DNA of 64,000 nt from Salibacter halophilus (GTDB taxonomy: Bacteria; Bacteroidota; Bacteroidia; Flavobacteriales_G; Salibacteraceae), in NCBI RefSeq assembly GCF_008806325.1, contig NZ_WACR01000006.1, positions 62,001-126,000 on the forward strand, given 5' to 3'. Below the pieces are notes generated by a model that was not told the origin of the DNA, made no database searches, and was given only the letters and a program-made list of their open reading frames with translations. A program made the translations under genes and the position numbers. This document shows positions 45,788 to 63,380 of the stretch, piece after piece (the first letter of the stretch is position 1; each line of letters begins with the position of its first letter).

Positions 45788-45820
45788 AAAGCCGCATTGT
45801 AAATCTTTGCGGCTTTTTTA
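45788..45820. terminator. Bidirectional terminator
   Basis: AAAGCCGCA (45788-45796) pairs with TGCGGCTTT (45808-45816), with T's on the right and A's on the left. It lies between two convergent genes. Confidence 0.85.
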
Positions 45821-47347
45821 TTGTTTTATTTTTCTGCCGTCAATACGAACATTTTGTCCTCCTTCGTATTCATTTGTGAGAATCAGTATTCCATTACGAT
45901 CAAAACGTTTCCAAACACCTTCTTTCAATCCAGCCTGGTATTCACCCTGCAGCATCTTTTTTCCATTATCGTAGTAATAAGTGTGCTTACCATCAGGTAA
46001 ACCATCGATGAATGATCCTTCAAAAGCGAGTTCCTCAGTATCCAGGTAATAATGCTTCCATTCTCCGTAACGCATTCCTTCAATGAATTTTCCTACTTCC
46101 TTGTATTCTCCACTGATAATCGTCCATTCACCATCTTCTAATCCATTGATGTAATAACCTTTTACAACAACATTTCCTTCTTCATCGTATTCCAGAATTT
46201 CGCCATCTTCCTTACCGTTTCTAAAGTATTCTTCTCTGAGGATATCTCCATCTTCATAATACCATTTCCACATTCCGTGAGGTTTACCACCAGCCAGATA
46301 AGCACCATGCTGCTCAATACTACCATCTTTGAAGTAGAACTTCCATTTCTTGTAGCGAGCTCCATCCAGGTATTCACCTTCAGCACGTAATTCTCCAGTT
46401 TGATAGAACTCCTTCCATGGACCTTGTTTCAATCCTTCTTCATCGATTATTCCTTCTCCTAAAAGATTTCCTTTATCGTAGATCTTTCCGGATACAACTT
46501 GCCCTGAATCATTAAATTTCTTCCAAACGCCATGCGGTTTTCCATTCAAATAAGTCCGTTCCCACTCAACTTGTGCATTGTCGTGAAAAGTTCGTTTAAC
46601 CTCAACATTCATCAACTCTTCAGCGTTTTTAACAACCTCTCCGTTGACATATTTAGTCGTTGAGAGAAGTTCTCCATTTCGGTCATATTCACGGAAATAA
46701 CCATTTTTTAAACCATTGACATAACGACCTTCAAGCTGTTTTACTTTTTTAGTTTCTTCTATATCTTCATGATAGGTAATCCAGAGTCCTGTTTTCTTTT
46801 TCTGAGGATTGTATCGATTGATCTCATAGCGATCTTGCAAAAAGCCTTTTTCGTATTTCAAAATTGCGATTACACGGCCATCTTTACTGTATTCGTAAGC
46901 TTCACCTTCAACTTTGCCGTCAACAAATTTTTTCTCGTACTCCTTGTTTCTCCTTTCAGGAAAGTAATATGTTGCCCAACCTTGTTTTACATCATCTTCG
47001 TACGGAATTTTAGAAACGAGTAAACCTTCTTCATTGTAATTATAAGTGTATCCGTTGCGTTTTCCAGCTGTATAATTAATTTCCTGTTCAAGAGCTCCAT
47101 CTTCACGATAAAAGCGCCACAGGCTATCTAATTTAAAGTTCTTCCTGTTTCCTTTTGATTTGAGGTTGCCGTTAGGGTAGTAGGTTTTCCAGTATCCATT
47201 AGGTTTGCCATCTTTAAAATAGCCTTCGCTGGAAATAATCCCGTTATCATATCGAAATACAGTGTAACCTGTAGAATCGGTTTCTTGGCTCTGACCAATA
47301 TGAAAAAACAAGAAAGCAACGATTCCTAAAAAAGCTCTTTTTAACAT
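45818..47347 (-). CDS. Exported MORN-repeat (YwqK-like) protein
   Basis: A 509-aa exported protein with signal peptide MLKRAFLGIVAFLFFHIGQSQ. The rest is about 17 repeats of 20-25 residues of the form YxNGxxxGxWxxYYxxG (for example GYFKDGKPNGYWKTYYPNG, AYLAGGKPHGMWKWYYEDG), the MORN_2 / YwqK type. Such proteins are common in Bacteroidota, often of unknown role; database 'antitoxin YwqK' labels reflect one B. subtilis member and are not supported here. The repeats presumably form an elongated beta-sheet surface protein. Confidence 0.87.
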   Translation of the reverse strand: MLKRAFLGIVAFLFFHIGQSQETDSTGYTVFRYDNGIISSEGYFKDGKPNGYWKTYYPNGNLKSKGNRKNFKLDSLWRFYREDGALEQEINYTAGKRNGYTYNYNEEGLLVSKIPYEDDVKQGWATYYFPERRNKEYEKKFVDGKVEGEAYEYSKDGRVIAILKYEKGFLQDRYEINRYNPQKKKTGLWITYHEDIEETKKVKQLEGRYVNGLKNGYFREYDRNGELLSTTKYVNGEVVKNAEELMNVEVKRTFHDNAQVEWERTYLNGKPHGVWKKFNDSGQVVSGKIYDKGNLLGEGIIDEEGLKQGPWKEFYQTGELRAEGEYLDGARYKKWKFYFKDGSIEQHGAYLAGGKPHGMWKWYYEDGDILREEYFRNGKEDGEILEYDEEGNVVVKGYYINGLEDGEWTIISGEYKEVGKFIEGMRYGEWKHYYLDTEELAFEGSFIDGLPDGKHTYYYDNGKKMLQGEYQAGLKEGVWKRFDRNGILILTNEYEGGQNVRIDGRKIKQ

Positions 47348-50835: not shown

Positions 50836-52002
50836 TTAAAATGAGAAATACTTACTCAGCTCATCCTGAATGTTAGGATTCACAAGAATAGCGAGAGTTA
50901 TAGAGATCAATAAACCGATGAATGCAAAGAATGCATCTCGCAATACAAGTCTGATTGTATCCATTGATTTGCGACCTGTTGAACTGTGTTTACTGAATTG
51001 CATCGCAATTTCTCTACCTCCAAGAAGTCCAAGGAATACCCAGGTTGTACTCATCGGTATGGTACTCATTTCTTTGAAGAAGAACAGAATGATAGCGTAA
51101 ACAAGATCGATGATTGAAGCGGCTCTAACATCGGTTACTTGTGATTTTTCCTTTACAATTTGCTGGATCTTATCACCTTTCAAATAGAAGAGGAGTCCAA
51201 GACCAAAGAATATGAAACCAGTAAAAAAGATAAAGCCCCATATACTCAAGCTACGGTCCAGGAAAACAGCAATATTAGCGGCATCCTGCATAATCCACAC
51301 AGACCACAAGGCACCACTGATAATCCATTGAGCAACACGCCACAATGGATGAGGTTTTCCTTTCAGCATCTTGTTGACAATTTTACCTAGTAAGAGCCAA
51401 ACGATTATTGCCATTGTAAAAGAGACAAAGTAACCGAGCAAACTCTTTTGCGTAACACTGATAATCCCCGATGCACTTCCACTAAAGGCTGATAATAAAA
51501 GGAAAGTAGTTGATACAGGCATCCTGAGCCTCGTAATAATCAACAGAATTAACGGAGCAGCTAACTGCAAAAAATGGAATTCTGTTGGCGCTTCAGAGAA
51601 TCCTTTTGAGGATAAACGCTGATAAGAGACATCACCATCGTAAACGATCCAACTAAACAGAACAGTCGCGATAAAAATACCACCTATGTACAGCCACAAC
51701 TGCCACCAGGGCCGGTCTTCGTTACTGGCTATAAAGGTTCCGATCGTTTGAATGGAATCATTGGCAATTGCCGAATAAGCAGCGAATGTAAAACCTACCC
51801 ACATCGCAATGCGGGGATAAGGATAAAAAATAGCGGCTAAAATGATAAAGAGAACGATGAGCCTAAAAAACAAACGCTCTTTGAAAAAGAACATCCGCAA
51901 GATGCGGTATCGTTTTCGGCCGATTAAAGCTGAAGTGAAATTGTAATTCAGCTCGCTACCAACCTTCGTCTCTTCTCTTTCCTTTTCTTTCTTTTTAGAC
52001 AT
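50836..52002 (-). CDS. PiT-like inorganic phosphate transporter homologue
   Basis: A 388-aa inner-membrane protein with about 10 hydrophobic segments after a charged N-terminus (MSKKKEKEREETK). The two inverted half-repeats show PiT signatures: AAYSAIANDSIQTIGTFIAS (compare GANDxANAxGT, about 94-113) and STIPMSTTWVFLGLLGGREIA (about 308-328; compare PISTTH), with LRMPVSTTFLLLSAFSG in the middle. This indicates a divergent PiT family member; phosphate or sulfate as substrate is inference. Overlaps the upstream gene by 8 bp. Confidence 0.75.
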   Translation of the reverse strand: MSKKKEKEREETKVGSELNYNFTSALIGRKRYRILRMFFFKERLFFRLIVLFIILAAIFYPYPRIAMWVGFTFAAYSAIANDSIQTIGTFIASNEDRPWWQLWLYIGGIFIATVLFSWIVYDGDVSYQRLSSKGFSEAPTEFHFLQLAAPLILLIITRLRMPVSTTFLLLSAFSGSASGIISVTQKSLLGYFVSFTMAIIVWLLLGKIVNKMLKGKPHPLWRVAQWIISGALWSVWIMQDAANIAVFLDRSLSIWGFIFFTGFIFFGLGLLFYLKGDKIQQIVKEKSQVTDVRAASIIDLVYAIILFFFKEMSTIPMSTTWVFLGLLGGREIAMQFSKHSSTGRKSMDTIRLVLRDAFFAFIGLLISITLAILVNPNIQDELSKYFSF

Positions 52003-52774
52003 CGTAATTTTTAAATCCGCCTATTTTATTGTTCTTGATTCTTGTATCGATGTATTCTCTAACAAGATTTATCCTGATATAACCCCTGCTCACAATGAGG
52101 AAGAAAATGGGTGAGATAACGTGAATTGCGAATTCCTCTAGTGTAAAAGGAATAGCACTACCTGTTTCAAGACCGTAGAAAAACAGAGCAAAAGGATTGA
52201 TGATAGAGGTGTTGGATATCCAACCTGATGCAAAGAATAATAGCATTATGAGGATGGATAAAAACAAGGTTCCTGAGAATTCAACTTCTCTGAAAACGTA
52301 TCTTATAATGTAGTACATGTAGTAGATTATGGCTACAAGAATTCCGTTTGCAAACCCTGTAACCCATTGGCTTTCAATTGAGTACCGAATGGTGTTAAAA
52401 TGATAAACCTCACCGATGTTTGAAAGGCAACATTCGTTGAGCATTAGGAAAATTTGAACGGCAAAGAATGCTCCCAGGATCTGAAAAGGAATGTGAAGTA
52501 ATCTCCTCCATGAAAAGCCACTTTCAAATAGCTTTATCAACGTGATAAGCGGAATAACATCAACCACATACCGGTAACTGGGAGTGAACATAGCAGCTAA
52601 AAAACCCAGGCCTACATAAAAGCTGAGTTCAGCATAACTGATGTCGTATTCAGGAGAAATAAATCGATAAATGAAAATCAGGAATAAAAGAGAAAACAGG
52701 AATGACGCGAATATTTCACCACCGTAATGGGAAATGGTCATGAATTTTTGGTACCTCTTTTTACTCGTCATCAT
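51995..52774 (-). CDS. Membrane protein resembling a degenerate aquaporin
   Basis: A 259-aa membrane protein with six main hydrophobic segments, starting MMTSKKRYQKFM at the ATG 52774 (a TTG lies at 52777). The two halves recall MIP channels: YVVDVIPLITLIKLFESGFSWRR ... ILGAFFAVQIF where aquaporins have HxNPAVTxA and a QxxGA helix, and NTSIINPFALFFYG ... VISPIFFLIVS where they have the second NPA and a final VGP helix. Only NPF and VIP remain of the NPA motifs. The stop side overlaps the PiT-like gene by 8 bp, so the pair is coupled. The aquaporin relation is inferred. Confidence 0.6.
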   Translation of the reverse strand: MMTSKKRYQKFMTISHYGGEIFASFLFSLLFLIFIYRFISPEYDISYAELSFYVGLGFLAAMFTPSYRYVVDVIPLITLIKLFESGFSWRRLLHIPFQILGAFFAVQIFLMLNECCLSNIGEVYHFNTIRYSIESQWVTGFANGILVAIIYYMYYIIRYVFREVEFSGTLFLSILIMLLFFASGWISNTSIINPFALFFYGLETGSAIPFTLEEFAIHVISPIFFLIVSRGYIRINLVREYIDTRIKNNKIGGFKNYDV

Positions 52775-52896
52775 CAATGGGTGTTACCCCGTTTATTTGC
52801 GGGCAAAGATAGCGGAGCAAAAAGCACTTCATGAAATTAATGAATTGCTCAACATCAAATTTAACACAGGGTTAATATTTCATGACGAAGCAGTAA

Positions 52897-61949: not shown

Positions 61950-63380
61950 ATGGTTTTTGCGAGTTCACTATTTCTGTTAGTATTCTTGCCGCTATTCCTT
62001 GTAGCCTATCATCTGGCTCCGGTAAGCAAGCGAAACCTTGTCGCATTGATTGCCAGCTTGATTTTTTATATGTGGGGAGCACCCATGTTTTTTTGGATTT
62101 TGATCACACTGCTTATTATCAATTTTTACGTGGTCAGATCCATTGACAGCAACACTAGCCATCATAAGTTCAGCAGAAAAACACTCCTCACTATTTCACT
62201 CATCATCAACCTGGGAACACTTGCTTATTTTAAATATGCTAACTTCTTCGTTGATAATGTAAACTATCTTTTGCAAAACATCGGTTTTAGCTCTGTAGGC
62301 TGGACTGAAGTTGCACTTCCAATCGGTATATCATTCTTTACATTTCAATCGATCACCTACTCACTTGATGTTTACTGGCGAAAAAATGAAGCACTAAAAA
62401 GCATATTTGATTATCTACTTTATATCTTGCTTTTCCCACAATTGATAGCCGGACCAATAATTCGGTTCAATACCATAGCAGGAGAAATTAAAGATAGATC
62501 CAGGAACTATACACTTGAAAACAAACTCAAAGGAGTGTATATCTTTATTATTGGATTATCGAAAAAGGTTTTTATTGCCAATGAGGTTGGAGGCTTTGTG
62601 GACCTGGTTTTTGAGAACAGTGGTGAGCTGTCTTTATTCTATAGCTGGCTCGGAATAGTAGCTTATGCAATTCAAATTTACTTTGATTTTTCAGGCTATT
62701 CAGATATGGCAATAGGATTGGGTAAAATCATGGGCTTTAACTTTCCTGAAAACTTCAAAAGCCCATATACATCAAAATCTATTTCTGAGTTTTGGAGAAG
62801 GTGGCACATCACACTGGGAGCTTTTATGCGTGATTATCTTTACATTCCGTTAGGTGGGAACAGAACCACTAAAACACGAAATTTAATTAATCTCGTGGTT
62901 GTGTTTTTACTTTCAGGATTATGGCATGGAGCCTCCTGGAATTTTGTCATTTGGGGAGCCTGGCACGGTGCTTTTTTGATGCTCGAGCGATTATTTTTGG
63001 GAAAACTTATCAAGAGGTCACCAGGCGTAGTTAACTTGATTTATTGCAACATATTAGTGCTCATCGGGTGGGTGTTTTTCAGAGCCGGGGATCTGACACA
63101 AGCTACAGCATATCTCAAAAATATGGCCGGTGTTAAAAACGGTATGGCTTCTATAGAACTACCGGATAACGGGTTTTTCTTTTTTCTTCTTGCAGGAATT
63201 ATCTTCTCTTTAATCACATTGACGAGTGCTGGTAAAAAAGCAGAGAACTTTTTGTTTTTCTCAGATCACACAAAAAAAGAGCACATTGTACTGAGTTCAG
63301 CGAGTGTCGTTTTATTCGTTGTTTGTGTGAGTTATATATCCGCTTCAGGCTTTAATCCATTTATTTATTTTCGGTTCTGA
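61950..63380 (+). CDS. MBOAT-family O-acyltransferase (AlgI-like)
   Basis: Membrane-bound O-acyltransferase, 476 aa and about 11 helices, which moves acetyl groups across the membrane for polysaccharide O-acetylation. SEFWRRWHITLGAFMRDYLYIPLGG is the family signature with the conserved histidine, and LWHGASWNFVIWGAWHGAFLMLE has the second histidine. It is followed 2 bp later by an AlgJ/AlgX-like gene, the usual partner. Its start codon abuts the fusion gene's stop. Confidence 0.94.
   Translation: MVFASSLFLLVFLPLFLVAYHLAPVSKRNLVALIASLIFYMWGAPMFFWILITLLIINFYVVRSIDSNTSHHKFSRKTLLTISLIINLGTLAYFKYANFFVDNVNYLLQNIGFSSVGWTEVALPIGISFFTFQSITYSLDVYWRKNEALKSIFDYLLYILLFPQLIAGPIIRFNTIAGEIKDRSRNYTLENKLKGVYIFIIGLSKKVFIANEVGGFVDLVFENSGELSLFYSWLGIVAYAIQIYFDFSGYSDMAIGLGKIMGFNFPENFKSPYTSKSISEFWRRWHITLGAFMRDYLYIPLGGNRTTKTRNLINLVVVFLLSGLWHGASWNFVIWGAWHGAFLMLERLFLGKLIKRSPGVVNLIYCNILVLIGWVFFRAGDLTQATAYLKNMAGVKNGMASIELPDNGFFFFLLAGIIFSLITLTSAGKKAENFLFFSDHTKKEHIVLSSASVVLFVVCVSYISASGFNPFIYFRF

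Follow-up and report, generated by a model that had tools for sequence, protein, structure and literature searches.

Why should a gene for a PiT-like transporter overlap a gene for a membrane protein that resembles a MIP channel? Two minus-strand genes of Salibacter halophilus raise this question, and we analysed them within a window of 64,000 nucleotides (the whole stretch of DNA under study, positions 62,001 to 126,000 of contig NZ_WACR01000006.1) from a 3.12 Mb genome in 32 contigs with an estimated completeness of 99.97% (G000). A 388-aa PiT-like protein is encoded at 50836-52002 and a 259-aa MIP-related membrane protein at 51995-52774, the latter with its ATG start at 52774; an alternative in-frame TTG at 52777, given in the ORF list, would yield a protein of 260 aa. 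On the minus strand the 259-aa gene comes first and the PiT-like gene follows, and the 8-bp overlap noticed in an earlier, sequence-only reading of this DNA is indeed there, at 51995-52002 (ATGTCTAA, minus strand). Genes for a photolyase, a flavin-reductase-like protein and a short-chain dehydrogenase (SDR) lie upstream of the pair on the same strand, a SulP-type transporter with a STAS domain is encoded downstream, and no Na/Pi cotransporter gene (PF02690) was found adjoining the pair in the window. Elsewhere in the window, positions 45818-47347 encode a protein of 509 aa in which MORN_2 repeats were matched nine times.

The larger protein had been credited with both PiT half-motifs, and profile alignment bears this out. 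Its first PiT half contains the first motif, IANDSIQTIGT (residues 79-89, 51736-51768), and MPVSTT (residues 161-166, 51505-51522), and its second half contains the second motif, MQDAAN (residues 238-243, 51274-51291, within MQDAANIAVF), and IPMSTT (residues 315-320, 51043-51060), all on the minus strand. Both half-motifs are present in altered form, aligned to the GANDVANA-type motifs and STTH: both STT segments are shared with the PiT/PHO4 family (PF01384), but ND-SIQTIGT and QDAANIAVF replace the NDVANA-type motifs, and STT is followed by F or W where the canonical residue is H. The score against Pfam PHO4 (22.8 bits) is below the cut-off of 33.7, weak matches to PHO4 (E <= 0.1) were seen in all six members of the PiT-like family tested, and no PF01384 match above cut-off was found in the genomes of the genus or in G303, a further genome of the order. 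Against canonical PiTs, hhalign gave a full-length, colinear match with a probability of 92.7% in local and 96.7% in global mode (P 4.7e-10). Judged by these profile comparisons, the 388-aa protein is a remote, full-length PiT relative.

The PiT-like gene was detected in 45 of 296 genomes of the phylum, among which G128 has a fragment at the end of a contig and G230 matches weakly, and in only 4 of 42 genomes of the order (G303 and the three genus members). Below the PF01384 cut-off, the family recurs in dozens of phylum genomes (L005-L033, L044, L146-L158). A Na/Pi cotransporter (PF02690), itself a member of a separate family, adjoins the gene in several other phylum genomes (5 of an initial 29 loci from outside the genus), and a PhoU-domain ORF does so in a sixth locus, the Pfam test of neighbours having covered those six neighbours only; such company hints that the PiT-like family handles phosphate. 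In family f24, the gene often adjoins an HNH-type gene and mnmA (both named by eye), and elsewhere Na/Pi cotransporters.

The nature of the 259-aa protein is a matter of remote similarity. None of the three known members of its family (the window protein and one from each of two relatives in the genus) matched PF00230 up to E 10, and searches of PDB sequences with the 259-aa protein returned no aquaporin. With 15 MIPs of the order as reference, profile-profile comparison of the trio by hhalign gave a probability of 68% (local) and 72% (global); with a wider selection of MIPs drawn from the phylum, the probability was 85.2% (P 6.1e-6, score 44.3, 210 colinear columns). As controls for this last score, 120 versions with block-shuffled columns reached a maximum of 24.1, and the reversed alignment scored 16.2. 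When 72 membrane ORFs from the loci were compared as single sequences with MIP, the window protein ranked first (40.1) and its counterpart from one relative (L035) second (37.6), the best of the others scoring 31.1; an MIP HMM of our own gave the window protein an E-value of 0.0013 among the ORFs of PiT-like loci, the next best being 0.19. Profiles of canonical PiT, PiT-like, Na/Pi and TauE-like proteins (the last label assigned by eye) remained unmatched by the trio, with a best score of 19.7.

This similarity is unevenly spread along the protein. The first half alone scored 45.3 against MIP (91.9%, P 6.9e-7), compared with a maximum of 24.0 in 80 shuffles, but the second half alone scored 15.2 (0.4%) where 80 shuffles reached 18.0, and it is tied to MIP by colinearity only, through an invariant NP at the second box and a proline at the place of the TM6 proline. 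Among the true MIPs tested, even the most degenerate one (L112) has a second half that can be recognised (94.4%). The two halves of the 259-aa protein matched each other with a probability of 0.4%, in a comparison of low power with three sequences only, versus 98.9% for the halves of true MIPs. Of the internal two-half layout that the sequence-only reading had seen in this protein, the relationship to MIP thus stands by virtue of the first half, but the halves do not match each other and the second does not match MIP on its own.

Structure prediction, which had been proposed as a check, depended on the alignment supplied. A model built from the three members alone was uninformative (pLDDT 38.6), and a search of the PDB with it returned weak hits, none with E <= 0.001. 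With 25 MIP sequences in the alignment, the protein was modelled in the MIP fold (pLDDT 75.0, pTM 0.76) with half-helices at residues 75-83 and 194-204, and this model matched aquaporins and glycerol facilitators (Foldseek E 3e-4; Z up to 19.3). Because the MIP rows were supplied to the alignment, the second model indicates compatibility with the MIP fold rather than independent proof of it.

The individual residues speak for the same relationship. Across 28 aligned sequences, four residues (E20, P75, Q98, P194) never vary and five more (G23, G55, G101, N193, P222) hardly do; E20 corresponds to the TM1 Glu, Q98 and G101 to the Q..G of TM3, and P222 to the TM6 Pro. The protein therefore resembles MIPs (PF00230; AqpZ/GlpF-type) in its first-half profile, the TM1 Glu, the P of box 1, the TM3 Q..G, the NP of box 2 and the TM6 Pro, as well as in its length and apparent helix order, and differs from them in its VIP and NPF boxes, the lack of a filter Arg and of an acidic TM4 residue, an unrecognisable second half and the missing Pfam match. 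One might instead regard it as a new membrane family that is no MIP derivative, with a first half that came to look MIP-like by convergence or through a shared three-helix piece, since the second half is unmatched, Pfam MIP is not hit, no internal repeat was detected, and the model is confident only when MIP rows are supplied. We consider this very unlikely, as the hallmarks E, P, Q..G, NP and P occur in the right order and spacing, the first-half score far exceeds the maximum of its null distribution, and the other transporter families compared gave no match. As far as profile and residue comparisons can tell, the 259-aa protein is a MIP derivative, strongly related to MIP by its first half, and is not a canonical aquaporin.

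Several other matches to the 259-aa family were rejected. DUF2254 was matched with E 0.0062 and 0.16 over residues 5-62 only, below cut-offs and inconsistently between members, and matches to DUF3792, TrbC, YabQ and a phage holin family (E 0.04 for the last) were likewise short, below cut-off and different from member to member. In genomes of family f24 there is a second, shorter MIP type (L103-L110, L112). Most examples carry an FYVEPP...YQQ-like stretch, and the second box, which may read NPA, NPT or HPF, lacks a following Arg; this type is not close to the window protein, and a comparison of the two as relatives gave a probability of 0.9%. In two species of one genus (L061 in G318, L062 in G307), a minus-strand ORF of ~105 aa consists of an AqpZ-like first half and the last few residues; a third genome of that genus (G314) has a full AqpZ of 226 aa (L045), and the dN/dS of 0.10/0.14 between the two short ORFs suggests that they are probably a gene decaying after internal deletion. 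Finally, a MIP gene at G065:C1:944690-945393 was matched as two pieces with two TAG stops in the first, and looks like a pseudogene.

What, then, has become of the channel? The claim that VIP and NPF stand in place of the two NPA boxes holds, and both are invariant in all three known members: by alignment, VIP occupies residues 73-75 (52550-52558, minus strand) at the place of the first box and NPF residues 193-195 (52190-52198, minus strand) at that of the second. Relative to MIP, the protein has thereby lost the Asn and Ala of box 1 and the Ala of box 2, and it has also lost the filter Arg, the residue after NPF being A in the window protein and G in its relatives. The TM4 Glu is absent, and TM4 contains no acidic residue. 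The selectivity filter, located in the 259-aa protein by alignment with what we take to be the AqpZ sequence, is predicted to consist of V54, F180, S190 and A196, without His or Arg. The review PMC6912568, which also guided the placement of these filter positions, describes bacterial aquaporins and glycerol facilitators with substituted NPA boxes (TPV, NPI, VPA and others). Altered boxes alone are thus not unusual; it is the joint loss of the first Asn and of the Arg that would argue against a normal water channel.

Substituted boxes of this kind, the MIP relationship by profile, the co-expression implied by the overlap and the purifying selection described below would also suit an active channel of changed selectivity that works independently of the transporter and is merely co-expressed with it, for example by releasing solutes or ions to balance uptake in a salty habitat. 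We think such a channel unlikely: it would have to work with neither the Asn of box 1 nor the Arg of the filter, F180 stands at the place of the filter His in the alignment with the presumed AqpZ sequence, and the second half carries no channel signal.

The two genes are kept together throughout the genus as sampled. The 259-aa protein and the adjoining PiT-like gene are present in all three genomes of the genus examined, the other two being MAGs labelled Cryomorphaceae bacterium T3Sed10_378 (in which "T3" probably stands for Tanatar-3) and uncultured Cryomorphaceae bacterium from SRR4030052. In these relatives the genes do not overlap and are separated by a gap of 3 bp in both; the 259-aa protein is 49% and 48% identical to that of the window, and the PiT-like protein 78% and 79%. 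Beyond the genus the situation is different. Outside the three genus genomes, the 259-aa family was not found in 296 phylum genomes by single-sequence search, in 395 by profile search, or among 41 relatives and 42 genomes of the order (these four samples overlap one another), and a search of genome contigs added no further member; nor was it found in viral contigs, phages or plasmids at the sensitivities used. The short extra matches that did appear (L003, L036, L040, L041, L067-L072; best E 1.8e-4) were put down to chance, nearly all being interrupted by stops; two of them (L036 and L072) have no internal stop, yet they match over 72 and 86 residues only and were rejected as members.

Likewise, neither a relative of the partner nor any MIP protein was seen beside the PiT-like gene in the 43 non-genus genomes, within 1.5 kb or slightly more on each side (less at contig ends). 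These 43 comprise 29 loci (L005-L033), G303 (L044/L159) and 13 loci (L146-L158), with G128 and G230 dropped. The three genus genomes contain no MIP (PF00230) above the Pfam cut-off, and a MIP search of the window's own genome gave one unrelated, sub-threshold place only. The suggested check on phylogenetic co-occurrence therefore came out in favour of the pairing within the genus (3 of 3 genomes) and against it elsewhere (0 of 43), and the partner is not a general requirement of the PiT-like gene.

A pairing confined to three sequences of one genus can reflect shared descent without function, which weighs against reading the partner as a subunit. Membership of a longer same-strand run in the window that includes the SDR, flavin reductase, photolyase and SulP genes similarly suits two genes that are co-transcribed, functionally unrelated and neighbours by descent at the level of the genus. 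However, the relative with a sufficient contig (L161, the same stretch as L038) has genes for DNA polymerase III delta', phosphoglycerate kinase (PGK), a small hypothetical protein and an HflX-type GTPase around the pair and none in common with the window; the contig of the other relative, at 3,027 bases, is too short to judge. Because the compared surroundings have changed completely and the genes nevertheless lie within an overlap or 3 bp of each other, the pair has been kept together through changed surroundings, and mere neighbourhood appears to us distinctly unlikely as an explanation.

Selection has acted on both genes. Between the two relatives (L034 versus L035), the partner shows a dN/dS of 0.195/2.65 and the PiT-like gene one of 0.106/1.67, with dS near saturation in this comparison and saturating in those with the window; both genes are constrained and under purifying selection. 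The partner has evolved faster than the transporter (49% and 48% identity versus 78-79%), which also fits a loosely constrained protein. Its C-terminal residues FKNYDV (254-259; 51998-52015, minus strand) are nevertheless identical in all three members, and may form a docking tail. Since this identity holds in all three although the genes overlap in the window only, the overlap does not explain it, and constraint at the protein level is likely. On the side of the transporter, four positions separate the trio from the 43 partner-less sequences, namely the inserted R31-Y32, P249D and T296S, the last of which is not exclusive. Position 249, just after the second PiT motif (51256-51258, minus strand), is Pro in 98% of the 43 sequences and Asp only in the three partner-bearing genomes. 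Both P249D and R31-Y32 may simply have arisen by chance on a single branch. A fixed complex of channel and carrier, in which the MIP-derived protein is an obligate subunit that does not conduct water and the FKNYDV tail, P249D and the RY insertion serve as contact points, seems somewhat unlikely to us.

The less specific reading is the one that we tentatively favour, at a little under an even chance: a MIP scaffold that has lost its water pore has become a genus-specific partner subunit of a PiT-like transporter, which would most likely carry phosphate. The sequence-only reading had left a choice between a transporter subunit and a new channel type; the former is favoured here by inference, and no result supports the latter. 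The overlap, or the 3-bp gap of the relatives, suggests that the two proteins would be made together by translational coupling. The partner would then insert into the membrane as a MIP-like scaffold whose pore is blocked or has lost its selectivity, and would most likely bind the transporter there, perhaps via its conserved tail, acting as a dedicated accessory subunit in assembly, stability or gating. The transporter would move an anion, most likely phosphate, together with sodium, perhaps under salty and alkaline conditions.

PiT genes are usually accompanied by a gene for a PhoU-like accessory protein (DUF47/PhoU_div). From what is generally known of that system, the present pair resembles it in that a transporter gene has a dedicated partner gene, and differs from it in that the partner is an integral, MIP-related membrane protein rather than a soluble, PhoU-like one. 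In the part of the literature that was covered, nothing relevant was found on a pairing of PiT-type transporter and aquaporin genes.

We conclude that the 259-aa protein derives from a MIP, has diverged far from it, and has entered a new gene partnership that is limited to one genus. The PiT-like family, which falls short of the Pfam cut-off and occurs in dozens of phylum genomes, deserves a profile of its own. Should the complex be real, a secondary transporter would have recruited a bacterial channel fold as a helper, and one could test how this transporter, found by itself in 43 sampled relatives, gained a new subunit. Even if there is no complex, the protein shows how far a MIP can drift under continued purifying selection, having given up the Asn of box 1 as well as the Arg of the filter.
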